From contig OZ022501.1 of NCBI GenBank assembly GCA_963989385.1, positions 93,666,979 to 93,730,978 on the forward strand: DNA of 64,000 nucleotides. Reading direction: 5' to 3'. This document shows positions 3,812 to 60,700 of the stretch, piece by piece. The first letter of the stretch is position 1. Every line of letters starts with the position of its first letter. A model generated the notes under the pieces. The model was given only the letters and a program-made list of their open reading frames with translations, ran no database searches and was not told the origin of the DNA. A program made the position numbers and the translations under genes. The DNA comes from Ctena decussata (lineage: Eukaryota; Mollusca; Bivalvia; Lucinida; Lucinidae).

Positions 3812-3880
3812 AGCAAACAATGTAGACCCTGATCAGACGCCGCGTTTTGCGGCGTCTGAGCTGGGTCTGCACTGTTTGCT
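3812..3880. repeat. Hairpin-B palindrome
   Basis: Arms AGCAAACAATGTAGACCC and GGGTCTGCACTGTTTGCT with GACGCCGC/GCGGCGTC inner stem. Core of the TTAA MITE around it. Confidence 0.8.
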
Positions 3881-4384
3881 TAATATCCCCAAAACGGGTA
3901 TCTGGTCTAAAAAGGGTTAAGCCCCATATCAGAGGTATGTGTTTTAGCATTCCTCTCTGATTTGCTTCTTGTAAAAGGTTTTAGTGACCTAGCCCCCGTT
4001 AATGTTAATGCTTAATTCTTTTAACACCGCACACAGGACTTTATGGTCAAATATGACCCTAATCGTTATATGAAGATATATAGCTGGATAGGTAATTATG
4101 GTATGCTTAAAAACAATTTTCGGGTCACAACGACCATGGCAGAGAATTGTAGAAGAAAGTTAATTTCTGCACGTTGTTTATACCAGACAGGATTCATTCG
4201 AAACACTGGCCGACTTAGAGGTCTAACAAAGTGTAAGACCAATAAAAGTAACTTAGTATGGGAAAAAGATCGAGGTTTCTAGTCAAACGTTTTCGTAGGC
4301 ATGTGTTTATGTTGCTTTCGTTGCCTGTTATGAATGCCAGTCCCAGTGTGTACATAAGATAAAATTAATTTGAGCCCCAGTAAA

Positions 4385-6620: not shown

Positions 6621-7111
6621 CAATGACAGTTTCTGTTCTAATGACGTTTGTCATTTTTGCTAAAGTGAGCGATTCAGGGCCTCTTGTATAAAATGTAACG
6701 CCCCGTGTTGTTTAATAGGATTAATGCGGTGTACCATGTGTTGTACTTGTTTACTACACCAAGTATTTTTGTACCCTGTATTTTTACCGCAAACGCAGTT
6801 TGCAGTTGATGCAGGCTAAGGGAAATAACTTAAACTTTAGAAACTACTTTGTATACCCATCTTCACTTCCCATGCCTAGCGGCTGTGGTCAGGTGGTGCT
6901 ATTCTATGTCAGCTCCCTAACCTGAATATGATCAGCGTCAAAATGAGCGGGGTGGTCGGGTGGCGCGATGATCCAGTGCCGGGCCGTCCTGCTTATTTGA
7001 AACATTGTAGGGCAAAGGCCTGAATCAATCATTACATTTGGCAAAACAAGTGCACATGTCCATCCGGGTGTCCGCCGCACTGAGCTTAGCTACCGGGAAG
7101 GTGGCAGTGGC

Positions 7112-7730
7112 ACTTTTTGTGGGCCTTGGGATGAGGGTGTGGGGATGACGATAGGCACGGTTCGAGTATTAAGACCTACAAAATAGGGTCTTTTTGTGGG
7201 CCTTGGGGTGAGGGTGTCGGGATGACGATAGGCACGGTTCGAGTATTAAGACCTACAAAATAGGGTCTTTTTGTGGACCTTGGGGTGAGGGTGTGGGGAT
7301 GACGATAGGCACGGTTCGAGTATTAAGACCTACAAAATAGGGTCTTTTTGTGGGCCTTGGGGTGAGGGTGTGGGGATGACGATAGGCACGGTTCGAGTAT
7401 TAAGACCTACAAAATAGGGTCTTTTTGTGGGCCTTGGGGTGAGGGTGTCGGGATGACGATAGGCACGGTTCGAGTATTAAGACCTACAAAATAGGGTCTT
7501 TTTGAGGGCCTTGGGGTGAGGGTGTGGGGATGACGATAGGCACGGTTCGAGTATTAAGACCTACAAAATAGGGTCTTTTTGTGGGCCTTGGGGTGAGGGT
7601 GTCGGGATGACGATAGGCACGGTTCGAGTATTAAGACCTACAAAATAGGGTCTTTTTGTGGGCCTTGGGATGAGGGTGTGGGGATGACGATAGGCAAGGC
7701 TCGAGTATTAGACCTACAAAATAGGGCCTT
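7112..7730. repeat. Tandem repeat, eight copies of a 77-bp unit
   Basis: Units start about 7112, 7189, 7266, 7343, 7420, 7497, 7574 and 7651. Each contains GGGATGACGATAGGCACGG and ATTAAGACCTACAAAATAGG. Copies differ at only a few positions (gtgg/gtcg alternation), so the array is young or homogenised. The last unit is the most diverged. Confidence 0.95.
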
Positions 7731-7900
7731 ACAATCCGCTACCGCCACTTCACAGTGTAGTGTAGCGGAGCGGAACGCAACGTCAGGAGTCTCATGACTA
7801 GCTCGAGTATGTGCCTCAGTTGTTCATCTGTTTCAAGTTACTCGGTATATTTTTCTCTCCTTGAAGTCGAATGAGTCTCTTAACCAGTCTGTAAACAAAT

Positions 7901-8131
7901 GAGCCGCGACACGAGAAAACCAACAAAGTGGTTGTGCGCCCAGCGCTGACTCAGATCAGCCTGGGCATCCGCCCAGTCTGATCAAAGTCTTCGCTGTCCG
8001 CATAAAGGTAGCTTAGACCCTTAGCTACCCTTAAAGCGCTTAGTGAAGAGTCTGAACAGACTGAGTGGATGCCCAGGCTGATCTGCGTCTGCGCTGGGCG
8101 TGCAACCACATTGTTGGTTTTCTCGTGTGGC
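7901..8131. mobile_element. Snapback MITE family D, copy 1
   Basis: Long imperfect palindrome: GAGCCGCGACACGAGAAAAC at the left, its complement gttttctcgtgt at the right, with CATCCGCCCAGTCTGATCA and its inverse inside. No coding capacity. Confidence 0.8.
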
Positions 8132-9420: not shown

Positions 9421-9427
9421 CCCGTCT

Positions 9428-9435: not shown

Positions 9436-9497
9436 GAGACTGCTCCACTGGAGTTTCTGAGTTTTCGCCACATTCAGCACTTAAAGAAGTTTGCAAC

Positions 9498-9737: not shown

Positions 9738-12700
9738 GTATATAGTCAACTCTTGATATCTCGAAGTCAACTCCAGCCCAAACTACTGATATCTCAAAGT
9801 AAATTTTCTGGTACCAGAAAATTTACTTTGAGATATCAGCAGTTTGAGTGTAACAGGAGTTGAAATGTAAATAAAAATAGGAAGTTTAAATATATTCTTT
9901 GATATAAGAAGATATTTTTGAGGTATCAATGTTCGACATATTGCAAGTTGACTGTATAAGAATATTTCGACTTTCCATTGAATTTGGTAATTGAATGAAA
10001 TTATGATCTTTTATTTTTTATTTATTTATTTTCATTTTTTTTTTACATCTGGTAAGATCACACTGCTCAGAGTCTGCATTGGCACACATGGACTTACCAG
10101 AGTCTATGTAGATTGCTGAATCAATACAAAAATATGTTTTCATATAGATTGAGGTGAAGGTAACCTTCTTTCCATGCTATAAATTTGAAGAACATGGTAA
10201 AAATACAATGTACAGGTGTACGCGTGCCCATTTGTTTGCCGGCTTTTGTTTATATTGCATTGCTCGACAGGAACCAGAAAAGGAAATTGCAGTTTATGTA
10301 TGGAGTGATTGGTCATATTCGCAAACAATTGTTCCTCCTACTTTTTGCCAGTTTAATATGACAAAATATGCACATCAACACACATTTTATCACCAAACAT
10401 CAAGGTTGAACCACTCTCGTGATTTTGTTTTCATACTAGGAATACTAGTGAGGCTTTAATCATATGGGGCATTAATCATACTATTTCTTTATTTCAGGGC
10501 CAGTTTTGTGATTATTGTGACCCTTCCAACCCAGCACAGAACCACTCTATCGCCTATGCTATTGACGGTACAGAAAGATGGTGGCAATCACCACCCCTGT
10601 CAAGGGGCAATGAATTCAACGAAGTGGATATTGTCATCAACTTGGAGCAGGTATGTTGTTATTGGAGCTTCTCATTCTACCATTTCCATTCATTTATTCA
10701 GGGCTGCAAGGCTAATCTGAGGCTTCCCTGTTGGCATAGGCTATTATTGTTGTGTCTTGTACATTTTGATGAGAGGCCTGCATTGAATGGCTGGTTTATT
10801 ATGCAACATGCTGTTAATTACTCTAGTTTGTCTGATAACAAATTGAGAATTTGGCAAAATCAGCAAAGACAAGAACCATAATGACATTAAACAATGGACT
10901 GGAAGTGTCTGGCCCTGATCAGCTGCTCCTAGAGAAAACAATGTAGACCCTGCTCAGACTGCTCTTAAAGGAGCAGTCTGATCAGGGTCCACACCCTTTA
11001 CAAGTCAGCTTGCAAGTTTTTGACTCATCAGCCAGATGATAAAATTTTAAGATAATTATAATGACAATTGAGGTGTCCCAGGATTTGGGGTAATTATGGT
11101 AATGCTGATTTGTTAGATATTTCTTCCATTTGCCAAAATTTTGGGAAACACCCTTGGTTACCATGGTTACTTTTACAGGAGATTTCTGCAAGAGTCTACT
11201 GGCTTACAAGATAGATTGAAGCGCTATTCTGATTTTCAGAAACTTTAAAATCAGTGTAAACTTTGATGCAGAGCCCAAGCTGAATATGGGTTTTGAATTT
11301 TTGATGGAAATTTTTTACATTATTTCTGTCTTCTCTCCATGAAAATTAAATATTGACCCCTCATTAAAACTGGCTGACATTTGTTGTTGCTCCACAGTAG
11401 GACCACCTTACCAATGTGAGGTTATGTTGAGGGCCACAACATGTTCTAAAGAATAAATAAGGGGAAAAAATCCTCAAAATGCTATGAATCAAACATGTTC
11501 AAAACTGTATGAAGGTGGAAAAAGGTAGATCTTAATCATTTACACTGTAAGGCTAGCAGAATTCATTCAGTCAGTGTAAGCAGGCTACCTGTTACTGCTT
11601 ATAAGTGAGTATGAACAGCTAAGTAGTTGTAGAGATTAAAAGAGATTTGTAGATAAGATAGTGGCATCTGGTATACAAGTGTGTTAACATGCTTGTTCTA
11701 CACAGCCTACAGTAGCAGATTATCTGCCTCAGTCACTTCCAGATATCTGTATCATTGATAAAACACCTGGCCAACACATTATAGTCCGTTTGCTCCCAAG
11801 TGCAAACGGGGTATTGCTTATTTTCTCGAAAACGATGAAAGTTCCATCAAATGTTCCAATGTCCTAATGATTCCTATAACTATACATAACAGAATACGGA
11901 AAGTCCAAATTTTTCGATGCTTTTGTAAAATATTTTCCATTGACCTTAATGCAAAAACTGAGCAGTTTCACAAAAGGGCGTCGTATGCTTGTTAGAACAG
12001 CCAAAATATTGTTGATAGGCAATAGCGTAAACTCGTAGTTTACTACAGGTGTGGGCGTATATGAATGAAATAGTAAAATGTATTCACCTGTCCGCACGCG
12101 TAACGCATGGTATCACTGGTCAGGTGATTCTATGTTGTAAAAAAATATTGAACTATTATAATTATTTTGCGAGTAAAACGTGTATGTTATAAAAATTGAT
12201 AATATATGGGTGAAACAAAAAGTAGAAAAAATGGATTTAGAATAAAATTTCAATTAATTATGCAAATTTTGTTCTAGGGATAGCATACATTGGTCACATG
12301 CTGTGACACGTAAAACTAAACGGGAATTCCAACAGCCAACTTTTACTCCCTTGTAATTAAGAGGTGAAAATGACATATTTTAGGTCCTGTTTTTGTATAG
12401 AAACTTTTTTATGCAAAACCTCACATTTCTGCAAAATTATGATTTTGTTATGTATAGGATGAAAATTAAGAATGAGCGATTCGAAAATCTTTTACCTCTC
12501 ACCAATTTTGAGAAAATATTGGGGATGCCGTTTGCATTTGGGAGCAAACGGACTATAACTCTTTAAGCCCCAGTGATGAAATTAGCTGCAAAATTTGCAA
12601 ACAGCATAGATCCTGATGAGGTGGCTCATGAGCCGCCTCATATAGATCTACACTGTTTGCCCTCCAATCTTTGAATTATCGATATGAAATGTCTTGGCCA

Positions 12701-15700
12701 AGGCAATTTTTTAATCTGCAGGCGTTGTCGTCTGGTTTTTGGTGCTAAAAGAGTTAAGGCAAAATTCCTGACAATTTTATGCAGGCACAATTGTATTTAC
12801 TGAGTTAGATTTTCATTTTTATACTGTTAGATTTTTTTCAACAGTACTGCAGAGCCAGTCAGGCCAACCTTAAAAATACCTTTGTTTCGCCTTCCTTGAC
12901 CCTGTCAAATAGAGAAGGGTGGGTCTATCAGTGGAATATTTTTTTCTTCTGTATTAGCAAGTTATAATTGCAAGCCACATTTATTTATTTATTTTATTTT
13001 TGGTACATGCTGTTGAATAGGATGTAAAATGGCAAGTCATCCATCCATCCATTATTTTTGGTGCATTGGTTATACCGTATTCAGCCCTTTTAACTAGTGC
13101 ACTGTATAACATCTAGCATTTTCAAAATGGCATTAACTATTTTCCCTAAAGGTCTTCCTAATAGGCCTACATTTCTAAGAATTATAAGGATATAGAAAGA
13201 AACAAAATTTAGTGTTTAAAACATAAGAGAAAAGCTGCTTGTAGTAATACAAGGATGGATTTTGCTACTGAAAGAAGCACTTACAAACAGTCAAAGGGAA
13301 AAACTTTGAAAATATGTGCTCATATAATTGTTTGCCTCAGAAATGCCCATGATGTACGTGTGCTTTTTGGGGCATGTGCGCTAATAAGGTTGAATACGGT
13401 AAGTTATAAAACAAATCTGTCATCTTAAGCATTTAAATACTAAGACTAGGTAAGTCAATGCTAGATTATAAAAAGACAGGTCACTCTGTCCATAATCTCT
13501 TATCTAATCTGCTGAATATCCTAACTGAATGGATTATGTGTAAAACCAAAGCAGGAGATAAAGAATTGTAGAATAAATCTGAGATAGTTTCTAGTGAATC
13601 CATGTAAAAACATATGTTGTAATTTAAAGGTAGGTTCCTGTACTTTGGAATGCATCATAATTTTGATGATTTTTTATCCAAGTTGTTGGAAAGCATTTAT
13701 AAAGAGGAAATGAATAAGTTTCACTAAAAAGTGTAAATAAAAAAGATCGTAGAAAAGTCGTTTTGCAAGGGATTTCCTAACTCTGCTTCGCACACCAGTT
13801 AGCGCTATTTTTAGTTCGCGCCAAAAATAGATAACATAGCAGACGTCATGCTGCATTGCATTTCGGGATAGTTTTAACCCATCGGCCATGCCAGGACCTC
13901 TGGAAGAGCTCACGGCAAGAGAAAATTAACCGTTGGCAAATGACATCAGAAACTGCGGACTTGTAGACATATATACATATTTATTTTTAGAACTGGAATT
14001 CCAACAAAAGAAAATAAACCAAAGGGAAAACGACTATTTTCTACAACATCTGACAATTTTCTCAGTAGCAACAGTTTCAGAAAAATAAGAGAATTCAATA
14101 CTACCCAGAAAAAGACAAAATTATTTTGTGAACATAATTGTTATCGCTAGTCCAGGAACCTACCTTTAACCTCAGTATATCATTGATGAGGCAGTTTTTC
14201 TAGGGGGTATAATCTAGTCTGGTAATTTTTTCTTCCAAACGCAACTGTCATACTTGGCTACTGCCGAGACTCTGCAATTTTTTGCTTCCTGTCGCCACTG
14301 CTATGTGTACCGGTAATACATGGCTTTCTGTCGAGACTGTCGGCCTGATTCTGCTTCCTGCCCAAACTCTCTGCAGGAAGCCATTTTTCGCACACGGAAG
14401 GAAGCAAGAGATCTGGTACCGTTGGGTCCTCTTACAACCAATAAGGCTGTAATTCAGGTCAAGTCCTTTATTCTATATTTAGGCTACATAAAGTTTTGAG
14501 TCAACGGGGAATTAACTCTGCTTGACCTGGAGACCACGATCACCATTAAAGGGTCCTGACTCATCAGCTCATTAACATAGCTAATGAGACGTGAGGTTCA
14601 AACTTAATGAACAAGTCTGAAGAGTTCTTTGAAGTTTCCAAATTTAATAAATGTTTCTTCTGAATAAGCATCCAAAGTTTAGTAAACAAATTACTACATA
14701 AAAGTTCTTAAATAATATTGTATGATGGTAGTAAATGAATCTCACATAACTCTCTAACTGATCTAGTCAATTGTTTATTAAGCTTAAAATGGTTCTTTCT
14801 GAATGTTTACAGTTTCTAGATTTCTTTGTTAAATATGTAAAAGTTACTTCTCTTGATTAGATCCTTAAGTTGTGATATTAGTCCTTTATCCTATGGAATA
14901 GTACAGTTCACAAGTCCTAGTTTAGTTTCCAGAATATAGTTCCAACATGAAAACACTGGTTCCAAAGTTCACATTAAACCATCCCGACATGCAAACTTAT
15001 CGAAACGGATGGCTGAGTCTGAGACCTGATGTTTGCAGTGACTAGACTATGCTAGACTGAGACTCGACTGATGAAATGAAGTTTTGGTCAACCTTAAATA
15101 TGATTTTGAATCCAAATGTGTCAAATCTCTTGAGGGAAGTCATCAGAGTCAAAATTCTTTGAGAAGAATAAGTTTGCAATGATAAGATGTATATCAGAAG
15201 TAAAAGTGCCAAGTTTCGCTATCTATCAAATCAATTTCTAAATTATGTCAGGAAGTAAAAGTGCCAAGTTTCACTATCTATCAAATCAATCTCTAAATTA
15301 TGACAATTAAGATGGCCAAATCACCCAAGTATAGAATTAGGTCCTTAGGTGTCACAGAGTTCTTCCTTTGGTCTACTGATACAAATCAATGTGCCTGAGC
15401 AAATAATGATTGCAATGATTATTTAGAAAAACTGACTTTGCAAGCAATAATTTAGAAAAGTTTCAAAAATATTATGGAAAAATATGTTATGCATTTTCAG
15501 TATTAGAGTAATTAAAGTAGTAATGAATAAACCTGAAATAAAGTACATATATGACATGTATGTGTTACAGCGTTTGATTGCATATAATGAATTTACATTA
15601 TTATTATTTTTATTATCTTTTTATTTTTATTTTTATTCTATTAAGTAAATGGGACAAAATGGTCACTTGGTGACAGATCACTGACAGTCTTGGTGAAAGC

Positions 15701-18700
15701 CAAATATGACAGACAATCTGGGCGGGAAGCGAAAAGTGACAGACTTAATTTATACCCAGTGATGTATATTTTCTGTGGAGAAATGAAAAGCTCAGCCAGA
15801 ATTAACCCTTAACCCATTCCATTCAGGATACCCCTTTAGGGTACATATCTGGGCAAACAGTTTGGATCCAGATCAGGCCCCACAAACATGCACGGGGCCT
15901 GATCTGAGATCCAAACTGTTTGCTGCCTATAGACATCATTTCTGCAAGAGTTAGTTAGACCAATATTGTCAAAATGATGCAGACGACAATTTCAGCAGAC
16001 GACAAAAATACCCAGAATGCAATTGGTTAAAATGCCAATAGCACACAGCAAAAACCATGTACAGCCAAATGAGGCCTGATGTTATGAACAGCCTCATCTG
16101 AAACTGCTCAGTTTTGTCTGCAAATTCATATGTTTTCATTTCATCAGATAACCCCAATATCTACAGCTCTGTAAATCCAGTGGATTAACTTTCTTGCACC
16201 ACATTAGTTAAGAGAACCATTTTAAGCTTCTTTCTACTGTATTAATCCTAATAAATACCCCAGCTCTAATAAATGCCCCCTGCCTCATTTCCAAAAATAA
16301 TGTCACATTGACTTACAATGCCAGCCTCTGTGTTTCCTATTAGTTTTAAAATTTTTAAGGAAACAACTTTTATGAATTCCTGTTTGCTTCTCAGATCTGG
16401 AGGACATTTAATAGCTCTTCAAATGGTGTCCACTCTTCAGTATTTAAAAGAAAGGAAGTGGCTATTGACAACCGGTTGTCACTAGCCTCACAGGCTACTG
16501 ACAACCGGTTGTCAGTAGCCTGTGAGGCTAGTGACAACCAGTTGCTATAAATCCTATTATTTTCAAATAAAACTCAAGATATTTTAAGCATATTAGTTTC
16601 ATGGTATTACTATTATATTTGTTGATATTTGTTTTCACTCTTGTCAAGTTTTAAGTTGATTGTAGAAAGCAAGAACCTATTAAACAAATCAGATGTAATT
16701 TTTTTTTTTATCTACATTATTATTGTCTAGAAGTCATTGAGTTATTCATAGAAATAGTTTAAAGAATTTATGCATCACATGCATACAAATTTTACATTTA
16801 TCTTGATGGAAAAAATATTTTTCCAGTAATCATTACATGCTCTTCCCTATATACATGTAGCTATATTCCTGTTGTTCAATCAAGCAAATTTGTTTATTTA
16901 CTGATTCTATCCACTAGGAAAAATAAACTTCAAATTCATAATATGAATACAAGAATAACTACTATTTAATCATGGAGGCAATTGTGCAAACAGAATTAGC
17001 ACATAAACTTCAGAGAAAATTGCAAGCAGTATTTTGAGTTAGTTCCCTTACAAAGTATGATTTGAGTTACTTCCCTTGGAAAATCTATTTTTAGAAGATA
17101 TCTCTTCTCCATATGTTTGCTTTTATCTGCAGATATTTTGCTGTTGTGATTCATATATAGCTTGATTTAAAGCATAATCCTATTGAGAATTATTTGTGAT
17201 GTTTTTACAGTGAACCAATGCTTCCTGTCCTTTAAAATGCGCATTTAATATATTAGCCGGTTGTCAGTAGCCTAACAGGCTAGTGACAACCGGTTGTCTC
17301 TAGCCTGTGAGGCTGCTGACAACCGGTTGTCACTAGCCGTCGCCTAAAAGAAATTGTTCCTACAGGAGCAAATTTTTTTTTAAGAGTCTCTAGTCTTTTG
17401 TCCTGAGTTGTGTCTGGGATGTGGCTCTGTTCTGATTGCAGTTGTATCTATTTTCTGTTACTTCTGGGTACCTTAAAATTCCTAAAAATTGGGACACCTA
17501 AACTAATTACCATAATTATTCTAAAAATGGAACAGTTTGACTTTACTATGCAGTAATCTCTGCAGAAATCCCTGCAAAAGATGTAGATGGACTGGCAAAC
17601 AGTGCGGACTCTGATCAGACTGCTCCTACACTGTTCTTAGAACTAACTGTCCCAATAACTTAAAAAATTACGGCACTGGCTGAAAAAAAAATGTCCAACC
17701 ACAGTGTGAGCTTTTGAGGTGATGGTTCCTGTCTGGTGTGGTAACACTATCCACCCGTCCTTATTGTCCTCAGCTGACAGACTAAAGACCCTCCAACTGG
17801 GTCAAACAATGTCTCAATGGCAAGGTTGTTATCTGGGATTAGCCAAACTTAACCTGAGGGCTTTTTAATAGCCACAAACAACTTGTCACCTGATTAAATA
17901 GACCATACCTGACTGGGACAACTTGTTAAAGTATTGAGTGAGCTGCAGATAGGTCAAAACATTGGGGTGTAATACCCCAATATTTCCACCTATCTGCAGC
18001 CTGCCACAAGTTAGTGCCTCCAGGAGTGAGTGTCATACACATGGCCACAGACATTTCGGCCCATGGGTTGTTGGCCTAGAACAGATGTGCTGACAGACAC
18101 TTCAGTGTTTAAAATTCTGAAATAAAATGCTACTACCAATAATGGGGGTAGCAGATCCGCCTTCCTTTCCTCCAGCCTTTCGTATGAGTCGGACCAAGGT
18201 CCGGTCTCTGCATGACTTCTGTGTTATGAATTCACTCACTCAAAATTTTACACATTTTGGCCCCATAAATAGCAACCTATAATTATTGACAATAGTTCAC
18301 AGCTGTTTGAACCAAAATTCTAGTGAAATTTCACTTGAATTTCAGAGAAATAATATTGATAAAATTGGTCATAATACCACCAGAATTGGTCATAATACCC
18401 CCAGAATATTCTGAAATTTCAGTGATATTTTCCAAAATTTCACTGAAATTATGGGCAAATTATGGTGGTATGACGACCAGTTTTATCTCTGTTACTTCTA
18501 CAAAATTTCACAAGAATTTCAGTGAAATAATGGTAAAATTGCACTGAAATTTCATCAAAATGTGATCATAATGTCATCAAAATTTAAAAAAAATATCAGA
18601 ACAAAGTACTAGAATGAAACAGTAGATTTGATTATGCTTCTTTTTGAAAGGTCATACAATATATGGACACAGGCTATGTGAATGTCACAGGACTGTTTTT

Positions 18701-45700: not shown

Positions 45701-48700
45701 TTATATTGACGAGTTTGGGATTGAGATTGTTGTATGCTTACGATCAGGGCCCAGTTGTTCGAAACTAACGACGTCGTTAGTTAACGTGACATTAAAATTT
45801 CAAACTTCAATATCACAAATATGCCAATATTTTTTGTTGTAAAAATGTGAGAAGCTTTTGCATTTCAAAAGCTTCTCACGTATTTTCAACAAAAAATATC
45901 AGTGTATTTGGCTATAAAGTCTCAAAACACTGAACAAGTAGACCTCTTAACGAGCTTGTTAGACTAACGATGCTTTGAACAACTGGGTCCAGAAGTTTAA
46001 CATTTTCTCTTTATTTTCAGAGTGTAATTGTGATGTTGGAGGCTCATTGTCCCCAGTGTGTGACAGAGAAACAGGGCAGTGTCTGTGTAAACCAAGGGTA
46101 GAGGGCAAGAGATGTGAACTGTAAGTATACGTGGACAGTTTATCTTATAAGTCTTAAAAATTTCCCTCTCAAAATGAAAGAACCAGTGAATAAATTGGAA
46201 AGCACATGTATGGACTGTCAGATTGATAAACTAACTACTTATCAGCTCTAACTATGGAGAAAAAGCAGCATGAGGGGTGTCTCCCAGTATTTGTCAGAAT
46301 ATCTAGTAACAAGCTTCTCCCTATACGCAAGAAGCTTTGTAAGTTACTGAGTAATGTGTGTAAAAGATGCATATGAATGGCAGACATTGCAAACAGTGCA
46401 GCCCCAAATCAGACTGCTCTTTCAGGAGCAGTCTGTTCTGGGTCAAGTTTTTTTTAACAACATAGAAAATCTTATAAGTTTGCAATAAAGTTATTTAGGG
46501 TCATTTAATAGTGACTATGAAAGCTTCTCCCAAGTAAACTTCCCAGTATCAGCAAAATGCATATTCACATAGGAGTCGGCATTGATGCATAAGCTATAGG
46601 CCGCTGTGATATTTTTAAATTTGAAAATGATAGAAACTGTGTGTAGTTGTCTGAAAATTGCTGTAGAACAAGCGGCTTGGATTCAGCACTCACTTTAACT
46701 TTATTATAGGCCTATCAAGCAACATTTCATTCCAACCTTGGACCAGATCAAATATGAAATAGAAGATGGCGTGACACCTGAAGGGGCCCAGATCAGATAC
46801 GGCTATGATGAAAGACTTTTCCCAGACTTTTCTTGGAGGGGATATGCTATACTGACCAGAGTTCAGGTAAATACAGGGGTTTAACCCTGAAAAATAAAAA
46901 AAAAACAGATGGGAATTTCAAAAATGATTCATCCTGGCTATATCATATTTAGGATTCAGAGATGAGAAGGCAAACAGTTTAAATTCAGATGAAGCAGCTT
47001 ATTATAATTATCAGCCTCCTTATCTGGATCTACACTGTTTGCAAAGTCAACCATTTTCAGTTTTGACACTTGAAGGATTATCTATTAACAATTCATGACA
47101 GCATATCAGAAGAAAACTTCAGTCATTTACTCTCTCAAAATATGAATTTTACATTCATTGTTAGAGTTTTAATGCCCGTTTTACAGTAGATTTAATATTA
47201 ACACTAGATAGTATTGCTTTTAATGGAAACTTGGCTAATGTTTGCCGGGCTGCGTAGCCCAATCGGTAGGGCACTTGACTCATAAGTCAGAGGTCCTGGG
47301 TTCGATACCTGGTCTGGCCACATACCGCTTAGGAGGTCTAAGCCTGTCCAGGAATAGTGTGGTTAGGTTAACTAACTGTCCCGACATGACCTAAGCTGTT
47401 GACCGTGGACGTTAAGCAACAAATCAAATCAAATCAAAATCAGGCCTCTCTGCTTGTTTCTGTGGGTCAGCCTCAAGTCTGGTCCACTCTTTATACAATT
47501 ACAAAACAGAAACTGGCCAGTAAACTCTTTTGTTCTGAAACAATAGTAGATTCCATGAACTTGGACTCTAACCATTCCACCACACAAGCCTTGGACTCTA
47601 ACCATTCCACCACACAAGCCAGATTTCATTTTGAATGAGAGAGAACCAAGTGTTTGGAGTTGAGTCAGAAAACATCACTGTAAACTGTGTTTTATTTATG
47701 CTCTATGGGTTATATGTCTTATTTGTAAATCACACATTCTTTGATTGTTACAGTCAATATGTTTCAAACTTTGGTTTCAGCCTGAAGTGTTGATGGATAT
47801 AGAAATCAACAAACCCAGTCTGTACAGACTCATCTACAGGTTTGTAAACATGAACGAGCAGTCTATTACTGGAGAAGTAACCTTTAAACCTGAATCAGCT
47901 TTTGACATTGAGCAGAAGAGTGAGGTGATGTTTTTACCAACAAGTGATCCAACATTTGCCAGTGTTGGTAACAGCGGTGGACTGTCAACATTTGTATTAA
48001 ACCCTGGAGTGTGGACAGTCTCCATTAAAACTGATGAAAGTGTTTTCTTGGTAAGTTGGGAATTTTGCTGATAAGATTTGTCTTTGTCAGAGTAGAAGCT
48101 TTGATGTTTGTTCACTAAAGATTCAAGATTTTAACACATCTGATCTGGGATTACACTATACATGTAGCTGAGGATTCCCTGTGGTCCTTAATTAGAAGTT
48201 CCATTGCACGTTTCCAAACAGCCTCCTAGACCTGTCTTTAATATATTTGTCTGGTCTCCTGAACCCAGGTGTTCAGTTCTGTGTTAGTGCCTTATTTTTA
48301 TAAAGTCATTAGTCTAGGATTTATTACGTTCTGAAATATTTGTGAGGTGCTTTTGCTCTGCATAAGCTTGCTACATTCTGTAGCAAAAAAACTAAGTTCA
48401 GCAAAAGTTGCGTTGAACAATTGGGCTCCTGATTTCATTGAGGAAATGTTACCTTCAAAGATGTCACTTTGATTTCACCAGAAATTACTGAATAACAGGC
48501 TTAGATGAAAAATGTGTTCAATAAAAATAGTGAACTTTCCTTTCAGGACTACATGTTTTTGATCCCACAAGCTTATTATGAGGCTACAGTTTTACAAAAT
48601 CAAGTGTACAAACCATGCAGGATTGGAGAAGAGGGGCCGTAAGTGTTCAATTTTTAGAACTGTTTTTAAATGATTTCAGCAGTGTGTAGATTAACGTACA

Positions 48701-51700
48701 TGTATAATACAAGAACTACCACACATGTAGATGAGGAGAGGTGAAAAAAAATTAGAACCCATAAACTTCAGACTAGCAGTGTTTTGCAGAGCTTAAACTT
48801 ATATAGACATACCTTTTTTCACATATGTTTGATTTTCAAATTGATTTGAGTGAAAGAAGCCAAGATTTTTAGATAGAAATTTGTTAATATTGTTTTTTCT
48901 TTCTTGAGTGAAACGGCAGTTCTTGACTCTCACTTGAAATGTCTCAGTATGGGGATCTAATGATACCTGCAATCCCCATTCTATGGAGAAACAAAATGAA
49001 ATGCTAGATTTTCATTGTAAAGTTTTGGCTTTTTTTAGGGCATTGTCTAATTGTTATATTTTCATTGGCAGATGTATCCACTATAACTATCCTGATGTTG
49101 TGGACTTCCCCAGTGTTAAAGGAGAGTCTGGTTACATTGTAATTGATGACCAGAGATATCCTATCCAGCTCTACGACAATCCAGAAATACTTAATGAGTT
49201 AGGCATCACATCCATGGCTATTCTCAGCCCCAACCAGGTATGTAAAGAATCATCAAGATGAATTGGTATCTTTTCAGGGAAGTAGCTCAGCTATTTTTAG
49301 TTTTGGCTCCTTTTCCAGTGGAGTCGACTCTTGAAGAAAAGAATTTGCTCCTTAAGGAGCAAATTCATTGCTTTAAGAGTAGACATTAATAGGAAGGGCT
49401 CTATATTCCAGGGAACTAAATAGGAAGTCACAAAAGATGTTTCCTTTTCTAAAAATGATAGGAAAAACATGGAGGCATACCATTATACATTACATACAAG
49501 ATCATGTTAGTTTCAAGAGCAGAATCAGCCATTATGCCCTAGATATGTGTCTGATTAGAGTAAAATGGATCAAATATATAAGTGAAAGGTATTAAAAGGA
49601 ATTCATGAAAACATGTACAGTCACTAAATGATAGTAAGATGTTTGTAAACAGGTTTTGAAAAAAGTTTTATGTGGCTCACTAGTTTTCTTATTTTGTTGA
49701 CCTATGTTTTATTTTTCCATGTTCAGTACTTACCGTAATGACCCTAAATATTCGGACAGACAGGTCTAAATAAACATTGTAGGCCCAGATCAAACTGCTC
49801 CTCAGGAGCAGTTTGATCAGGGTCTACAACATTTGCCATTCACCAAGCATCATTTGGATGCATTAACGTATGTAAAATCCACTTTTTAAGAATTTTGGAA
49901 CAATAATTGTCCAACTTCCGCGTGTCCAAAATTTTAGGGTCATTACGGTAGCCTACAAGGTGCCGAGCTTGTGGCTGCAAAAGCAAAGACTTGGTCTGGA
50001 CTGCATGTTTTGTAGACAAACTTCTTCCTGGATCTGAATGTGACAATGAGGGACCGCTATGTACTGATACTGAAGTATTTCTCCAGCGACAATGTAACCC
50101 AGAATATTCTCTTCAATATCAATGAGACAGATGCCACCTCGGTTCTCTACAACTGTGAATACAGGTAAACAATTTTGTGATTCTCAGTTTCTTATCCCTT
50201 GCAACCCAAGGAAATGTCGCAATAGATCATACATGTAACCTACCACTACCTAGTGGTAGGTTGTGATCTATTACGACACTTCCTTTGGCATCTTCAGCTG
50301 AATGGGCACTTTAGCTGGGGAACCAACTCTGCCATTTTCGTTTTTGCCTCCTTTTTCAGTGGGAATCAACTCGTAAAGGAAAGAATTTGCTCCCATAGTA
50401 GCAACTTCTTTCCTTTACGAGTAAACCTCATTGTGGAGTGTTTTTGTTGTCCAAGAAAGCAAAATATCGCTTCCCTTTGTAAAAATAGCAAATAAACCTG
50501 AAGGGGAGGCATCACCTTAATGTTTGAAAGGTTGAATATATTAGTTGTGATCTAAGTTTTACAGTAAGTTTAAAAGCTACTGAAGTTTAGATTTGCTTTT
50601 GGCTATGCTAGAAACACTTGATATCATTTTGTGGATTGAAAATTGCAAACGAATCTAAATATGCCAAATATTATAAGTGTATTGATGTTATGGGAACTGA
50701 ATTTTGCAGTTTTGTAATTGTAGAAATAGTTAGTGACCCCGTAGTTTGCTAATTTTATCTTGTTTTCCTATTATTCCTTTATATAGACATAATTTTTGCA
50801 GGTGTTTAATATCATGTAGATATCTAGACCTTAGAAATTGTGAACAGTAATTCACCATGTTCAGTTACAATATCTGAATCATTTTATACAGCTTTACTGA
50901 AAATTTTCTTGTTTGTACTTGCAGTTCTCTCTGTCGGCAAGTTGTATCAGGATTGGATGAAATGGAAGCTGTATTTGACCTTGATGAAGGGACATACCCA
51001 ATCAAGGTCACAGGAGACTCAGATGTTAACTCAGCTATTGTAAGCCCTTCTTCAATATTAAATAGAGAGTGTTAGATAGGCTATGAACTTAAGTTAATAA
51101 CCAAATAATGTATACGTAATGGGTCATTTTTTGTGTTTTCAGTTGTAAGTGTTTTTATACCAAAATAAGGTATATGCATGCTTGTATATGGGTGTAATTC
51201 ATATGGTCTGCAACCAATGTGAAAACTTAACAACTTTGAGACCCTAAAGATTCAATTTTGTATAGCCTGCAACTAGCAGAAGCAAGACATAGTTACTTTC
51301 CCGATGTCAGCGTTGAAACTATCAGGTTTTCTGGTTTAGCTCTCTTTTACGACAATGCTTAGACAGGTAAGACACAGCATTCAACAGACTTCTTCTAGTA
51401 AATGTAAAACTTTATAGATTTGCATTTATCTTCAAGAATATCTTTCACTGCATGTTCACTGAGATCTTACACTGAATTTTGACCTTTAAAGAACATGTAG
51501 CTGTGAGTTCATGACTTCAAAAAATGTATGAAGAATTTTAATAAAGAAGCACCCACCTATATTTGCTTTCATTGCAGGAGTCCATTATTGCCATTCCGTA
51601 TGATAGATGGGCCATTGGATATATCAGACCAAGTATTGTCTGTATCAGAGTCAATGGAGTGTAAGTGCTAGTCTGACAGTTAATTGGGCTCTAGATAAGT

Positions 51701-54700
51701 TGTTTAACCCCAGTGCTCCAGATAAGAAAGGGTAACAGGGATAATTAAGGGATAGGGTAGAGTCGGGTAACTTAGGACATGGGGGTAAATTCGGACATAC
51801 AATTGCAAACAGTGAAAATCCAGATGAGACGGCTCATAATGAGCCGTCTCATCAGGATTTTCATTGTTTGGCCAGTTATTTTTAGTTTTACTAGCAAACA
51901 ACTGACATATAAAGGAAACAATGTCAGTGTCCGAATCATCCCGCTGTCCGAAGTTACCCGACTCTCCCCTAGTTTTCTATATTTCTCCATAAAACATGTT
52001 GTGACCCCTCATTAGAACCAATTGGCCAAGGCATTTCTGATGAAGGATCACATTCTATGTTTCCATTGAGAAATAAAAATGATTATCTTAAAAAAACACT
52101 TCAACCGGAGCTCTGATAACAAGAAATCATTTGGACAATTTCAAGGCCTTGCGTGTGGAGGAAATGAAAATTTATCCAGGAGGTATAATTTAAAACTCTT
52201 ATGTGGAGTCCTGAACGCTGTTGCCTTGAATTTATTATTACGTGAATGTAAGTTCAGTGTAAATTCAATATGAAAGCAAACACAGAGGAATAAAAGATAT
52301 TCTCTATCATTTTGAGAACTTAAAAACCACTTGCCGAACATAGTACCTATCTATCTATCTATCTAGTTGTACTGCAACACCCCCTCGCGAGGATTACATG
52401 CAGGATGATTGAGCGCCGTGAAGAAAAAAAGTGAAATGAATAGATGAGACTAAAAAGTGCAAAAGTGAGGTGAAGAAAGATGAAAGGGTTAAAACAGTTA
52501 ACAGAAGTGAGATATTAAAATCAGGTTAAAAACAGGTCTGTTGTATTTATGGCATCTGGTGGTCAAGAGACCTGACTGCCGCACTGAACTGAGTCAGTGT
52601 AGGCAGCAAAACAACGTCAGCTGGAAGTCGATTCCATTGCACACTTATAAAAATTTGCTTGAGTGTGAATTTGAAGTAGCGCAAGGGGGTGGCTGTGACG
52701 TGTCATTCTTGTAGGATGTGTAAAATACGATGGGAGAGGTACAGCAACAATATTGTGAACAATTTTGTATAACATGCAAAGGCGAGCGTCTGCTCTTCTC
52801 TGCTCCAGAGACCTCCAGCCAAGACTAGACTGCATAGCAGTGACACTGTCGTAGGGTGAATAATTATTCAGAGTCCAGCGGCTAGCTCTACGCTGTATGA
52901 TTTCTTATTGACACTTTATTATACCCCCGCTTTGAAAAAGTGAGGGGTATACTGGTTTACATCTGTCAGTCCGTCCGTCCTTCCTTCCGTCTGTCTGTCC
53001 GTCCGTCCGTCCTTCCGTCCCTTTTTTTCGTAAAAGATTTCTCCACAACCCTGCAAGCTAGAGTAGTCATTTGGTATGCAGGTTGATAACGACATGATGT
53101 ATCGTGGGATTGAGAACCAGGCTTCTCCTGCTTATTCTTCCCTGTATTTCTCCGATTTTCTTTCTTTCCATACTTTGAATAATGAAATTTTTCATGAAAG
53201 ATTTCTCCACAACCGTGGAAGCTAGAGTGGTCATATTTGGTATGCAGGTTGATGACAACATGATGTATCGTGGGATTGAGAACCAGGCTTCTCCTGCTTA
53301 ATCTTCCCTGTATTTCTCCGATTTTCTTTCTTTCCATACTTTGAATAATGAAATTTTTCGTCAAAGATTTCTCCACAACCGTGCAAGCTAGATTGGTCAT
53401 ATTTGGTATGCGGGTTGATGACGACATGTTGTATCGTGGGATTGAGAACCAGCCTTCTCCTGCTCATTCTTCCCTGTATTTGTCCGATTTTCTTTCGATC
53501 CATACTTTGAATAATGAAATTTTTCGTCAAAGATTTCTCCATAACCCTCCATAACCGTGCAAGCTAGAGTGGTCTTATTTGGTATGCAGGTCAATGACGA
53601 CATGTTGTATCGTGGGATTGAGAACAGGCTTCTCCTGCTTATTGTTCCCTGTATTTGTCCGATTTTCTTTCTTTCCATACTTTGAATAATGAAATTTTTC
53701 GTCAAAGATTTCTCCACACCCGTGCAAGCTAGATTTGTCATATTTGGTATGCAGGTCAATGACGACATGTTGTATCGTGGGATTGAGAACAGGCTTCTCT
53801 TGCTTATTGTTCCCTGTATTTGTCCAATTTTGTTTCTTTCCATACTCTGAATAATGAAATTTTTCGTCAAAGATTTCTCCACAACTGTGGAAGCTAGAGT
53901 AGTCATATTTGGTATGCAGGTCGATGACGACATGTTGTATAGTGGGATTGAGAACCAGGCTTCTCCTGCTTATTCTTCCCTGTATTTCTCCGATTTTCTT
54001 TCTTTCCATACTTTGAATAATGAAATTTTTCGTCAAAGATTTCTCCACAACCGTGGAAGCTAGAGTAGTCATATTTGGTATGCAGGTCAATGACGACATG
54101 TATCGTGGGATTGAGAACCAGGCTTCTCCTGCTTATTCTTCCCTGTATTTGTCCAATTTTCTTTCTTTCCATACTTTGAATAATGAAATTTTTTGTCAAA
54201 GATTTCTCCACAACAATGCAAGCTAGAGTAGTCATATTTGGTATGCAGGTTAATGACAAGTTATTGCATCGTGGGATCGCAAACCGGCTTTCTCCCACTC
54301 ATTCTTCCCTGTATTTATTTGATTTTCTTTCTTTCCATACTCTGAATAATGAAATTTTTCGTCAAAGATTCCTCTACAACCGTGCAAGCTAGAGTAGACA
54401 TAGACTATGCAGGTTGATGATGACTTCCTGTATCGTGGGATTGAGAACCAGTCTTCTCCTGCATATTCTTCCATGTATATGTCAGATTTTCTTTCTCTCT
54501 ATACTTTGAATAATGCAATTTTTGCAAAAGATTTCTATGCATCAGATTCTGTAAGTTAGAGTAGGGATATTTTGTATGCAGGTTGATGATAACTTGTTGT
54601 ATGGTGGGATTGAGAACCAGCCTTCTCCTGCTTATTCTTCCCTTTATTTTTCCAATTTTCTTTCTCTCCTGACTTTGAATAATGCAATTTTTTGTAAAAG

Positions 54701-57700
54701 ATTTCACAGCAACCATTCAAGTTTGAATGTTCATATTAATTTTGGTATACAGACTGATAAAGACTTATGTCTTGCATGTATTTATTATTTTTTCTTTCTG
54801 TCAATGTGAAATCATTTTATTCCATATTACATAGAAAGGGATTTATGTTGAATATTGATATTTGGTATACATGGTGACAATGAGTTCTCTCTCTATGCAT
54901 TTTGTAACGAAAATAACACCATTTGATTTAAGCAGTTAAGCGGGGGTATAGTCGGATTCTCCGACAGTTCTAGTTTCTTCAATCATTATTTGTGTAAGTT
55001 GCATGAGAAAGCATTGATATAAATAATTTGAAGATACAGGGATACTCATTTCTGATTTCGGTTAGCTTTTTGCTGTTCAAGCAAAGCACAAATTTTAATT
55101 ACAGGATCTTCAGTATGGCAGAAATAACTCAATGAGACAGTATGCGAAGTGTATAGAGATCTGTGAATTTAAAATTAGGGCTGTTATTAATTTTCAGAGC
55201 TTTAATCAAAATTGAGAAAATTGTTAAACTGTCTCATTTTGTTTTCAGTTGTGTGGGCTCAAGGTATGCATCACCAGTAGGCTCAGTACGGATTGACTTT
55301 GAAACATTGCCAAATGATCACTTAGTAGCTCGGGAGTTGCCACCTGGAGTGACAGACACAGACATACAGATGGTCAGATTAAATGACACCCTGGTAAATA
55401 CGTTATTTCTTTGATAATAATAAGGTTTTCCCTTCCAAAACAATCCAAAAGTCTAGATCCCTTTAGAACTTTGGAATTGTTTTAGAAGGGTAAACATCAT
55501 CTCCCACCAGAATTACATTGGACTGATTTATATATAAGGAATAAATGTTATTTTTTAACGTTTACTGAAGTATAAACTACATCGGGTCACGAGCAAAGTA
55601 AGTGAACCCTGAAGGGGTTTACGTTAACTTTGCTCGTGACCCGATGTAGTTTATACTTCAGTAAAAGTTTACAAAATAACATTCATTCCATATATTTATA
55701 TTATTAAACAATGCTTTTGATCAATAAAAAGATAAACAAAAATAAGAAATGCATATATAAGAATCGTTTTAAAAACATTATCGGCCGAATCTTGCAATAG
55801 TTTGGAACAGCCGCATTGTCACTGCCGACCAGTAAATTCCACCTCCTGCTGTAGATTTCTCGTGCAAGTAGGCTTAGCAAGCTGTCACTCAATGTTTACT
55901 AGCTATTCAAGTGCATGACATGTTGAAGATTTCACGTGCTAGTTCGTGAGATGGGCTGTCACTCTGAAGCACGTGGCACAATGAAATTACTGACTTTTAA
56001 ACAACTCACTTAATTTGGACAACAGAGAGCGCTGCACTGATAATGTAAATATATTTTGATAATTCTAGGGAGGGGAAAACCTCATTTTATAGCCAAATAT
56101 ATACACTGGATTAGCCCCTATTGCGCCAAAAAGCAGATGACGAAATTTATGTCTGCAGAATTTCAAAAAATGTATCATCCAAGCGATATCATATTCAGAA
56201 TTAGAAACACTAGAGGGCAAACAGTGTAGATTCAGATGAGGTGGCTCATTATGACCCACCTCATCTGGATCTACACTGTTTGCCAATTCAACAATTTTAA
56301 TTTTTGGCGCTTTAAGGGTTAATCTTATTTCAAGGGCAAATAATATTAAATTTTACCATGGGAGTATTAAACATTTGTTGTGGCTAAGGCTGGTGTACAG
56401 CCCAATGTTCATTGGTTTTTAATGTCAATTTAGGGCCACAACAAACATTAAACAATTAAAAAGGAGTGGTTTAATGGTATCCCCTGATTCTCAGTCCATT
56501 CACAACTACTACTAGAGTGTTAATGCTTGACTAGAGGAGGTTAAGAAAATCAGCCTTTGGAAAGTCAGACTCTACAGAAGAGCATGGGTAGCCCCAATGT
56601 TAGAAGAGATTCATATATCATTTTATGCTGCAGTGGCTTTTTCTTGAAATGGGAAATAGGATGCACATCTTGCAATGTAGAGTTCTCAGTCTTAGCAGTG
56701 TTTCTTTACATGTTGAGTTGTACATTGTACATTTTTTGCCATTTATGAGGAAACTTCTGAGAGTTTCTGGTCGCTTATGTGGGCAACCAAGCCTTCCAAA
56801 ATGGTGTCTGACCTTAAAGGAAAGAATTTATTTATAAGGGAGCACAAAAATTCCTCCTTTAAAGAGTTTACTCCCATTAGAAGGGAAGCAAAAGTGAAGA
56901 TGGCAGGCAGGTCGCTTCCCCGGTAGATGTACCCATTACTTTTGAATAAATTATCATTGTGAAAAAATTTATTGCAGAACTTAATTGTGTTACTGGGAAC
57001 AACGCGTGCCTCAGGTCCTCACAAAATGGTAGTTCATTACTATCTGCCATACGATGTAGGAAAGGAGATGCCAGTGACTGTACATGCTAATGGCCAAGAA
57101 TACAAGGGTAGGTGGCTTTACTACTTTAAAAATTCTGAAAAATTGGGACACCTAAAATAATTGACATAATTGCCCATAAAATGAAATAATTTGGAATTAC
57201 AGTGCATTAATGCATACAAAAGAGGCAGATGAATTTCTAAATAATGTAGACTCTGATCAGACTGCTCCTTTTGGAGCAGTCTGATCTTAGTCTGCAGTGT
57301 TTGCTTGGACCTGCCTGTCCTTTTCATACAACATGCCCACATAGAACAGATGTGAAGATATTTCTTGACAGATGACATTGAGTCAGTATATCTGGCAGTT
57401 TCAGTCAATTGTCTATGAAAATGTAAGATATCCTTAAGCATAGGCTCGTGGTGGCAGATCAGTAAAACGTAAAACATTTTAAGTCAGTGGACACATTACG
57501 GTGGAATTTTGCCAATTTTGTCTTGCCCGGGATAAGCAGAAGAGAGATATAGATATATATACTTTAATGGTGCTGTAAGCGGTGGTGGCTTGCACTTTAC
57601 ATTTAGCTCTGTTTTGTGACTATGCACATACAAGTGAGGCACCAGATTCCATAGGTTTTTAGTCAGTTGGGAAAAAACTTCTGTTACATTTTGTAGGCTT

Positions 57701-60700
57701 CAAACTGAAACCCTTCGAAAAAGGGTCTACTCCTAAAGGAAAATATTTGCTCATAGAGGAGAACTGCTTCCCTGAAAGTGTACCCATTCACCATAACACT
57801 CAATTTGGCTTATCTTGAGTAATATACTGTCAGCTGGTATTATCTCTAAATCAAAGGTCATCTTAAAACTACTGATATCTCAAAGTAAATTTTCTGGAAC
57901 TCATCTCAAACAACTTATATCCCATAGTAAATTTTCTGGTTCCAGAAAATTTACTATGAGATACCAGTAATTTGAGATATACACATAATTATAATAATAA
58001 CTTGATCTGGTGTACTGTATCACGTCGAGTGGATGAGCTCATACCATCGGATCACCCGAGATGCTTGCGTAGAGGGTGATCCGATGGTATGAGCTCATCC
58101 ACGAGACGTGATACAGTGCGCCAGATCAAGTTACTGTTATAATAATTTGTTTATTATATACCTTAGGGTACAGTCAACTATTCATACTTGCCAGCGATAA
58201 TGCATCGACCCGGATTCGAACCTGCGTGGCAGAGGTATATAGCTAGTCGTAAGACAAACGTTACGGACTGAGCAATCGTTGCGCGCCCTTTGACGTGTTT
58301 GTTAAGGTTATGTCACTAGTACCGTTTCTCTGGTTCTCGTTTCGACAATTCACGTTAACAAATGACGCGCCTGAAGCTGGAACTCAGAAATAGCCTCGTT
58401 TTAAAGGATAGTGATACGGATTCAGAAAACGTCAGTTTGATACGGCTGTCTGTATAAGATGGCCAGAAAACAGGCAGTTCAAAGGGTGTATCATTGATAG
58501 GTTTATAATAAAACAGGATATGAGATATAAAGAAAAATAAGAAATGTGTCTAAACTATATTATTTGATATGAGGGTACTTCGAGATATCAGTGCTTGAGA
58601 TAATGAGAGTCAACTGTACATGTACTTCCAGGTACCTTCAGCCCACAGTACTGCCCCAGCACCAAGGGATGTAGAGCAGTAATCAACATCAATGGTCAGT
58701 CCTCACTGAACCTGATTGATCCTAATGTCAAGATAGTGTTTAACAATAGCAAAGGACAAGAAATCTGGCTGGTAAGCAGAAGTTTAAATATGTTTGTTTT
58801 TGCTTTTTGTTTTAAGGCTGGCAATTTAGAATATATTGTGGCTACTGGGTTTGGGATAGTGGGTCCTGTTGTTTAACATTTAGGTGTAAGAAAGTGGACT
58901 CAAGATCTCTGAATTGGTTGGAGCCTGGGTCAGGTCATATGTTACAGTCAAGTTCTGCCAGTGGGAGATCATATGTTTTTTCTGTGGGAGTTCTGTCCCT
59001 TACCTTTGATAAACGGTTTCCTTAATGCAAGTGAAATATTCTTGAAAAGATTGGAAATCCTAAAGCAAAAACAGAAAGTAAGCTATTCATGATGGAGAAG
59101 CCAAATCTAATGGAGGAAATGCGGACCCTCTTCAAGCAATTAGGGGAGAGTCGGGTAACTTCGGACAGCGGGTAAATTCTGACAGTGACATTTTTCCTTT
59201 ATATGTCAGTTGTCTGGAATTAAAACAAAACAATAACTGGCCAAACAGTGAAAATCCTGATGAGACGGCTCATTATGAGCCGTCTCATCTGGATTTTCAC
59301 TGTTTGCAATGGTATGTCCGAATATACCCGCCTGTCCGAAGTTACCCGACTCTCCCCTATGCTTTCTTCCATGCCGGTTCATATTGAGTGAGGGGTAAAT
59401 GGTCATAATTAATAATTTAGAGATTGCTGGTTTGATTTTGGCCAAAAAGTTAATTATGTTAGCCTCACTATCATCCCCTTTGTTCCACCATGCTGCAGAT
59501 AAGTCAGGGTAACAGGGATAATTTTGGGAGAACTTGAGCGGCTGTTTTGTAGTGGATAACACTCCGGACTAACAATCAGGGGTCACAAGATCGATTCCCG
59601 CTTCTCCGGTCTTTCGGATGAGACTTTAAACCGAGGTCCCGTCTCCATATGACCTCGTTGTTGGTGGGATGTTAAACACGAGTTCACTCACTCTCAATAA
59701 AAACATGTTGTGACCACTCATTAGAATCATCTTGTTGAGATGGTTCTAATGAGGGATCATAACATGTTTTCATTGAGAAATATAAAAAATTGTCATTGAC
59801 TCTTTAAAAAACCTCACATTATCTGGAGCTTTGGGGTGTCAAAATTTGTGGTTTGGTAAGCAGGAACTAAAATTATCACAAAAATTAATAAAACCAACCC
59901 TTATCTAGATCTTTGTCATGTGTTATAAACCCTCCTTATTTCCATTCCAGGATTACCTATTACTAGTACCAGCCAGCCAGTACAGTCCTCAGGATATCAA
60001 CATACTGCCTATTGATAACTCTCTCAGTTTCATTGAAGAGTGTGTTGATGATGGATTCAAAATCATGTAAGTCTAGCACTACATACAGGCCCGGATCCAG
60101 ACCATCACGTACTGGTGGGGCTCTGGATAACTGGTGGGGCTGGGAGGTGCCGAAATGTATGTGTGTGGGGGAGGGGGCTTGAAAATATGACATATTTAGT
60201 GTTCAATTTCAAGAGAATTTTTATAAAAAAAGATTTCCTTGAAATATATGTTGTGACATCTCATTAGAATCGCCTCCCCGAGGCGATTCTAATGAGATAT
60301 CGCAACATATATTTTGAATATTTTGATCTAACCACATTAGATATTTTTTCTCAAACTGTCATCAGATACTTCTTTTTATCTGGAGGACTACATATTATAC
60401 ATAACACAGAGGCCAAATGGCGGGGCTGCAGCCCCAAAGCCCACCCCCTGGATCCAGGGCTGACATAGTAACTTAACTAGCTGCCTAGTTTTTAGTGTCA
60501 TGGAGGTAATAAATTTAGTCAGCATTGTTCAGTTTCCGTAATAATTGTACGGTCATAGTAGTACTTTTTCCCAAAAATCTTGACTCCAGAAATTATTGAT
60601 ACACCTAAGTGTTAGATGTTAAGGTACAGTGTACATGAATATTCCTGTAGTATTTTGTTTAATGTGACCGTCATGTTATATACTGGCAAAATATCATTAC

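Follow-up and report, generated by a model that had tools for sequence, protein, structure and literature searches.

What holds a group of small transposable elements together when their ends differ? Families of miniature inverted-repeat transposable elements (MITEs) usually share their ends and vary in the middle. In a 64-kb stretch of the genome of the clam Ctena decussata (contig OZ022501.1, positions 93,666,979-93,730,978; source genome 1.66 Gb in 245 contigs), hereafter the window, it is an inner piece that is constant and the ends that vary. This piece, an imperfect hairpin of ~67 bp (GCAAACAGTG..CACTGTTTGC), spans two target-site types, TTAA and TA, at a set distance and in a mostly set orientation relative to one element end. 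A sequence-only reading of the window had described a recurrent palindrome of ~65 bp, which the present analysis bears out, and had taken it for an interchangeable core of several unrelated terminal inverted repeat (TIR) families. We propose that the core is probably no separately mobile unit but a cis-acting hairpin conserved across a large, old group of MITEs.

Counting fragments, the window holds 33 hairpin loci by an iterated profile search (E<=0.01). Across a random sample of the same genome (20 stretches of 10 kb at round coordinates, 200 kb in total), two profiles found 23 loci from single-hairpin elements and 46 from two-hairpin elements (class D, below) at E<1e-5; the reversed sample gave none at E<=1e-3. 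Genome-wide, a 17-base half-core allowed one mismatch matched 38,200 + 37,879 = 76,079 times, a count in which one perfect copy may figure twice, against 1 + 3 = 4 matches to the reversed pattern.

Pairwise tests and flank profiles sort the single-hairpin elements of the window into four classes, A1, A2, B5 and B6. Class D, which the sequence-only reading overlooked, has TGAGCCGCGACACG ends and a hairpin near each of them; in number of elements it roughly equals the other classes combined, and its 57 hairpins in the window plus the 200-kb sample make 25 pairs and 7 singles. Other stretches yielded two extra classes, A3 (TTAACCCATTAATGCC; four copies, of which one is partial) and A4 (TTAACTCTTTCGGCGCC; a single copy). 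The elements of the window are as follows.

3509..3920, minus strand: A1 element with TTAACCC ends; core 3813-3879; short interspersed element (SINE) between target duplications 3524-3534 and 3706-3716 (AAGTCCACTGG); classed by TIR pair and flank profile
15809..16030, plus strand: A1 element, second subfamily; core 15853-15923; classed by TIR pair and flank profile
12555..12757, plus strand: A2 element with TTAACTC/TTAACCC ends; core 12597-12660
56111..56322, minus strand: A2 element; core 56217-56283
46882..47080, minus strand: A2 element, degraded; core 46970-47042
18838..19004, plus strand: A2-like element, degraded; core 18873-18938; weak flank matches (E 0.16 and 0.021), BLAST match to A2
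22144..22200, plus strand: fragment, A2 left end and half a core; weak flank match (E 0.035)
49731..49951, plus strand: B5 element with TACCGTAATGACCC ends; core 49770-49836
57121..57330, minus strand: B5 element, damaged at the hairpin-near end; core 57237-57304
17469..17629, minus strand: B5 element, core reduced to about half (17595-17628)
10934..11001, plus strand: B5-type core, shell tentative; distal flank only, E 0.27
46389..46446, minus strand: B5-type core, shell tentative; left flank like that of 49731
19800..19862, plus strand: core without a shell class
51753..51971, plus strand: B6 element with TAGGGTAGAGTCGGG ends; core 51805-51871
59141..59365, minus strand: B6 element; core 59241-59307
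45202..45414, minus strand: B6 element; core 45300-45366
45027..45201, plus strand: B6 left end with its core (45077-45143) and a substituted distal part; adjoins the B6 element at 45202..45414
7906..8131, no strand assigned: D element with TGAGCCGCGACACG ends; hairpins 7938-8000 and 8039-8099
21662..21902, no strand assigned: D element, two hairpins
22801..23051, no strand assigned: D element, two hairpins
36528..36765, no strand assigned: D element, two hairpins
36784..37015, no strand assigned: D element, two hairpins

Short, non-coding, bounded by TIRs and present in many copies, the hairpin elements have the features of MITEs. Their lengths spread over ~200-230 bp, wider than the 212-216 bp first given for the shells, and the 3509 element measures 412 bp owing to a nested tRNA-like SINE flanked by an 11-bp target duplication (230 bp without). 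A1 and A2 have TTAA-CCC ends of the piggyBac/TTAA MITE kind: TTAA is present at all four A1 ends in the window, and the A2 consensus has TTAACCCTT at both ends, from which single copies deviate by eye. B5 (TACCGTAA..TTGGGACA, also written TACCGTAATGACCC) and B6 (TAGGGTAGAGTCGGGTAACTTCGGACA, also written TAGGGTAGAGTCGGG) are TA-flanked, with TA at the consensus ends and, by eye, at most individual ends (lost at 45414), as in TA-type elements. The five distinct ends originally listed are therefore too many, as CCGTAATGACCC and TTGGGACACC come from the same class and form the outer and the inner stretch of a single terminal repeat, TACCGTAAAAAGTCTAAATATTGGGACA, and TTAACCCTTTTTTGACC and TTAACCCTTAAAGCGCC have a TTAACCC terminus in common; one end is missing from the copy at 57130. 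Elsewhere in the genome, two A2 copies with the same direction are found near one another (L038, 7680-8100), one of them without its left part.

The hairpin offset is fixed, and its orientation mostly so. Far from lying at the element's centre, as the sequence-only reading had it, the core follows a common layout in single-hairpin elements: a terminus, ~39-41 bp (51-52 bp in B6), the oriented 67-bp hairpin, ~87-126 bp, and the other terminus. Measured from the outer TTAA or TA, the offset of the core is 39 bp in 7 of 11 A2 copies (25, 32, 42 and 53 bp in the others) and in 5 of 6 scored B5 copies (42 bp in the sixth; three further copies gave no score), 40-41 bp in the three scored of five A1 copies, and 51-52 bp in 8 of 8 B6 copies, about one helical turn from the offset of the other classes. 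By eye, D hairpins start ~39 bp from each end. Distal side lengths are 87-118 bp in A2 (12 of 14 copies scored), 107-126 bp in B5 (11 of 12), 97-100 bp in B6 (7 of 8) and 122 bp in A1 (1 of 4). We aligned 25 nearly complete cores (15 from single-hairpin elements, 10 from D), all turned with the nearer element end to the left. At one stem pair an A.A mismatch occurs in 17 of them (A1 1/2, B5 2/4, B6 4/4, D 10/10, A2 0/4), and the opposite T.T in a single core, an A2. Among cross-class pairs without A2, which are not independent of one another, alignment in the same orientation wins 238 of 327 comparisons, loses 70 and ties 19.

Homology between cores of different classes holds up even against a palindromic null. 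With shuffles that preserve palindromy (500 per pair, 21 pairs of class representatives), the observed score was reached by no shuffle in 16 pairs and by one shuffle in two more, that is, 18 of 21 at one or fewer; the exceptions are 15809 vs 49731 (5/500), 15809 vs D (25/500) and A2 vs D (41/500). The pairing of the stem is likewise conserved. In the aligned cores 80.8% of cells are paired, as against 69.1% after shuffling, and 97 cells carry double changes, as against 38.2, with 0 of 500 shuffles as high in either case; structures slid along the alignment pair at 33-38%. These counts are inflated by relatedness among copies and by palindrome correction, and they support a maintained stem without proving selection.

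Using RNA parameters, the consensus cores are predicted to fold into a long stem with few mismatches at -51.5 to -62.1 kcal/mol (-39.8 for D); the A2 consensus stem is symmetric. Such a stem would suit a role as RNA, in which element transcripts fold to feed a small-RNA pathway or to shield the elements. We consider this role highly improbable: a set distance to a DNA terminus would not be expected of it, and a scan of the window against Rfam at gathering thresholds matched no family to any core, its only two matches being tRNAs elsewhere.

Outside the core, the picture changes. The flank consensuses of A1, A2, B5 and B6 (the comparison took in these four classes, leaving out the D shell) have no cross-class similarity, each of 12 scores being reached by 25-441 of 500 shuffles; the closest pair is the left flanks of B5 and B6 (25/500). 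Single copies hint at a B5-B6 relation, in the left flanks of 49731 (1-5 of 200 shuffles) and in the right flanks of 57239 vs 45204 (0/200). Percent identity from free-end global alignment was dropped as a measure, its between-class value being 0.75 for core and flank alike. The statement that the ends "differ completely" thus stands for these four consensuses, and one hairpin does occur in several TIR classes that otherwise have little or no detectable homology.

Is the hairpin exchanged between shells, or does it insert into them by itself? Core variants follow the shell classes. On the core tree of the window the class labels need 5 changes, where 5 is the minimum possible, and on a tree with random and targeted copies they need 4, again the minimum (33 of the 41 single-hairpin entries used, after removal of 7 short cores and 1 coreless element). 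With A3 and A4 included, the whole core and the proximal arm alone each need 7 changes and the distal arm 9, against a minimum of 6. The enlarged set of 81 single-hairpin cores, 54 of them assigned by distal-flank profile and 27 without assignment, mixes the window, the random stretches and 40 stretches picked for an exact half-core match. The sequence-only reading had held that its proposal would fall if core and shell trees agreed and the shells were deeply homologous; the trees are largely congruent, and no deep homology was seen among the class consensus shells compared.

It had also suggested a search for shells without a core, and no true empty site was found, either in the window plus 200 kb (all classes, by distal flank) or genome-wide at the B6 junction. 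In the former, a search with the distal flank alone turned up 31 full shells: 30 contain the core, whole or in recognisable part, and the 31st is a remnant that keeps the outer end of the core. The genome-wide count covers class B6 at one junction, where near-intact copies are visible. Here the B6 left end adjoins its own core 7,722 times with up to one mismatch; one exact junction lacks the hairpin and retains its GCAAAC, which marks a deletion remnant. The B6 end joined to the TAGAYCC core type gave no exact match and 48 with one mismatch. By reading, 46 of these differ from the B6 letters at a single place, and the other two have TATATCC and the full TAGATCC; these two and one of the 46 were fetched, and each of the three proved to have inner and distal arms of B6 type. 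The tally is zero exchanged cores against 7,722 own-core junctions. As far as tested, then, the core is not interchangeable in the present.

The first reading offered took the hairpin for a small mobile element in its own right, one that inserts close to the termini of others and has palindrome centres as its targets. Its palindromy, its abundance and its presence in several shells would suit that idea, and an independently mobile palindromic element would be expected to show a target duplication of its own, varied positions and orientations, and empty sites. The offset is instead fixed and the orientation mostly so, by eye no common target duplication borders the core in the four class consensuses, core variants track their shells, and true empty shells number zero in the window plus 200 kb and at the B6 junction genome-wide. 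We regard such a mobile hairpin as scarcely credible; on the sequence evidence, a conserved subterminal cis element appears to fit the facts better than a mobile insert.

If the core is inherited with its element, the differing ends call for an account of their own, and A3 offers one. A1 and A3 have homologous distal flanks (0/1000 shuffles, 3 of 3 copies) and nearly identical cores (one copy scored), whereas their hairpin-near flanks, the terminal ~41 bp, cannot be aligned (202-855/1000). Since core and distal flank are homologous and the terminal ~41 bp are not, the pair points to a turnover of terminal ends during which core and distal flank persist. A4 resembles A2 in the left flank (0/1000) and the right (2/1000). 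In the account that we favour, the classes would derive from one or a few hairpin-bearing ancestors, and their terminal repeats would change fast, both ends in step, following different transposases. The TTAA-CCC ends look piggyBac-type, and the TA-flanked ends would belong to another candidate transposase. The hairpin, with its stem of ~30 bp lying ~four helical turns from the end (~five in B6), may have been retained as an aid to transposition or replication, for instance as a subterminal site for a transposase or host factor, through bending of the end, or through cruciform extrusion. It is a testable candidate for why some non-autonomous elements amplify well, and the elements provide a system in which to watch terminal-repeat turnover, as in A1 and A3.

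Common descent of this kind predicts that TTAA cores group together and TA cores together. Several observations weigh against it. A2 (TTAA) and B6 (TA) cores group in three trees (support 91/95, 95/88 and 81/86), and one of ten approximately unbiased (AU) tests rejects the congruent grouping (p 0.016; the others 0.057-0.292). Pairs that include A2 do not favour the same orientation (184 same, 176 opposite, 30 ties), the covariation could be the product of palindrome correction alone, without selection, and four piggyBac loci with placed ends (one end only at L077) have no hairpin inside those ends. Given non-homologous consensus shells in A1, A2, B5 and B6, the case for whole-element descent is built on geometry, on orientation and on the A1/A3 and A2/A4 pairs.

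Part of this would be expected if the hairpin, perhaps with adjacent bases, had been copied on a few past occasions, through template switching or gene conversion, from one MITE family to another otherwise unrelated to it and had thereafter been inherited with each shell, an alternative we hold to be somewhat unlikely. It would account for homologous cores in non-homologous consensus shells and for the A2-B6 grouping, as well as for two mismatch positions that the A1 (TTAA) and B5 (TA) consensus cores have in common; the rejecting AU test, too, was directed at a single B5+B6 core clade in the window set. However, the A2-B6 grouping is absent from the distal-arm tree, and the AU results weaken with more copies or separate arms. 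In the window set p is 0.259 for the TTAA grouping and 0.016 for the TA (B5+B6) grouping; with more copies the values are 0.083 and 0.098, and with A3 and A4 they are 0.292/0.136 for the whole core, 0.057/0.273 for the proximal arm and 0.205/0.184 for the distal arm. Equal offset and orientation would, moreover, need either function or a longer transferred piece, and no recent hybrid was seen in B6 at the one junction counted. A deep conflict between core and shell across TTAA and TA classes, as in the window test, was not upheld with more copies or single arms and is not claimed here; an ancient transfer of the core between those classes is possible. We think it unlikely that the hairpin is a portable enhancer of transposition that works with at least two kinds of transposase, was passed between families and drove the amplification of small elements. 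Were that true, a portable hairpin would stand behind much of the small-element load, at 23 single-hairpin cores and 46 D hairpins per 200 kb.

Being non-autonomous, the elements would depend on transposases encoded elsewhere. Their target sites would imply a TTAA-type and a TA-type enzyme, and a Tc1/mariner-type label for B5 and B6, taken from the target site alone, is a guess. The genome has 57 matches to PF13843 (piggyBac); among the 12 loci fetched, each only ~4 kb and with ends partly placed, none was seen with A1 or A2 ends as its own. Three candidates for a hairpin-bearing piggyBac were set aside: L077 looks like a piggyBac nested in the TTAA of an A2 terminal repeat (3188-3393), L080 looks like a piggyBac inserted at a TTAA midway along a D element (101-3378), and at L073 an A2 element appears to sit outside the TTAA ends proposed by the scan. 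A piggyBac transposase of the genome, at L071, is 86% identical to a protein labelled as from a Candidatus Thiodiazotropha metagenome-assembled genome (MAG), on a contig of 1,553 bases; the next among the named matches are Mya arenaria (57%) and Dreissena (55%). Thiodiazotropha are symbionts of lucinid clams, and the protein seems more likely to reflect host DNA caught up in a symbiont MAG than a gene of the bacterium.

The design has a described precedent, contrary to the initial impression that no known family is built this way. Coral CMITEs of Acropora, in the available part of their report, are small MITE families with differing TIRs around a conserved 75-base internal region, with TTAA target duplications, piggyBac-like CC[C/T]T ends and occurrence in tandem arrays; their authors propose a role in transposition for the internal region (PMC2872659). 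As far as that account goes, CMITEs are like the clam elements in having a conserved middle and varying TIRs; they differ in being ~100 bp long and of one superfamily, whereas the clam elements span TTAA and TA classes, and the piece shared in the clam, unlike the CMITE internal region, is a hairpin that covaries and lies a set distance from one end. The printed CMITE internal consensus has no similarity to the clam cores (53-230 of 300 shuffles as high), and we do not assign the clam elements to that family. Closer in host, the accessible text on the Lucina pectinata haemoglobin genes describes a 210-bp repeat 1, whose inverted ends are ~30 bp long and which contains a self-complementary segment of 77 bp, and a second repeat with a 68-bp self-complementary segment that has a short segment in common with repeat 1 (PMC4732748); likened by that description only, repeat 1 may be one of the clam classes. 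Compared with known superfamilies, A1-A4 are like piggyBac/TTAA MITEs in their TTAA ends and CCC-type termini and have the hairpin module in addition, and B5 and B6 are like TA-flanked Tc1/mariner-type MITEs in their TA ends and short TIRs. SINE families, according to the part of a report available, also share highly conserved domains, one of which, the V domain, was spread with a DNA transposon (PMC6887750); on that description both are conserved pieces of non-autonomous elements, and SINEs differ in being retroposons. A literature search turned up no hairpin common to TTAA and TA MITEs, which is not proof of absence.

Related DNA was also sought outside the clam. Viral contigs gave nothing save 30 matches to a 16-base pattern, judged to be chance, and one scan of contigs from other genomes gave no match. 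A second such scan returned two, of which one (L084) amounts to ~25 matching bases only. The other (L083) is an A1-like core with a TTAACCC end 41 bp away, at the end of a contig from a MAG titled Spirochaeta sp. LUC14_002_19_P3, perhaps of lucinid origin to judge by its name; the match suggests that the hairpin-plus-end design is not confined to this clam genome.

The window holds other repeats besides. A second long-palindrome family (AAAACATATGTTGTGACCCCTCATTAGAA...) has seven copies, and exons matching the laminin N-terminal domain lie at 9438-10881, in two frames, one above and one below the curated cut-off; the palindromic elements around these laminin-like exons probably lie in introns. 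The remaining features are listed below.

19993-20095, 31811-31885, 37180-37294, 42343-42447, 51983-52087, 59692-59778 and 60242-60314: second palindrome family
9779-9846 and 57903-57978: further palindromic repeat, seen at least twice
41641-41685 and 45827-45899: further palindromic repeat, seen at least twice
49323-49384 and 50369-50422: further palindromic repeat, seen at least twice
16469-16544 and 17257-17326: further palindromic repeat, seen at least twice
33703-34725 and 39820-40997: tandem array, unit ~146 bp
52952-54751: tandem array, unit ~166 bp
7036-7787: tandem array, unit ~77 bp
26989-27061 and 47248-47320: tRNA-like, the Rfam tRNA matches
3535-3705: tRNA-like SINE inside the A1 element, flanked by 11-bp target duplications

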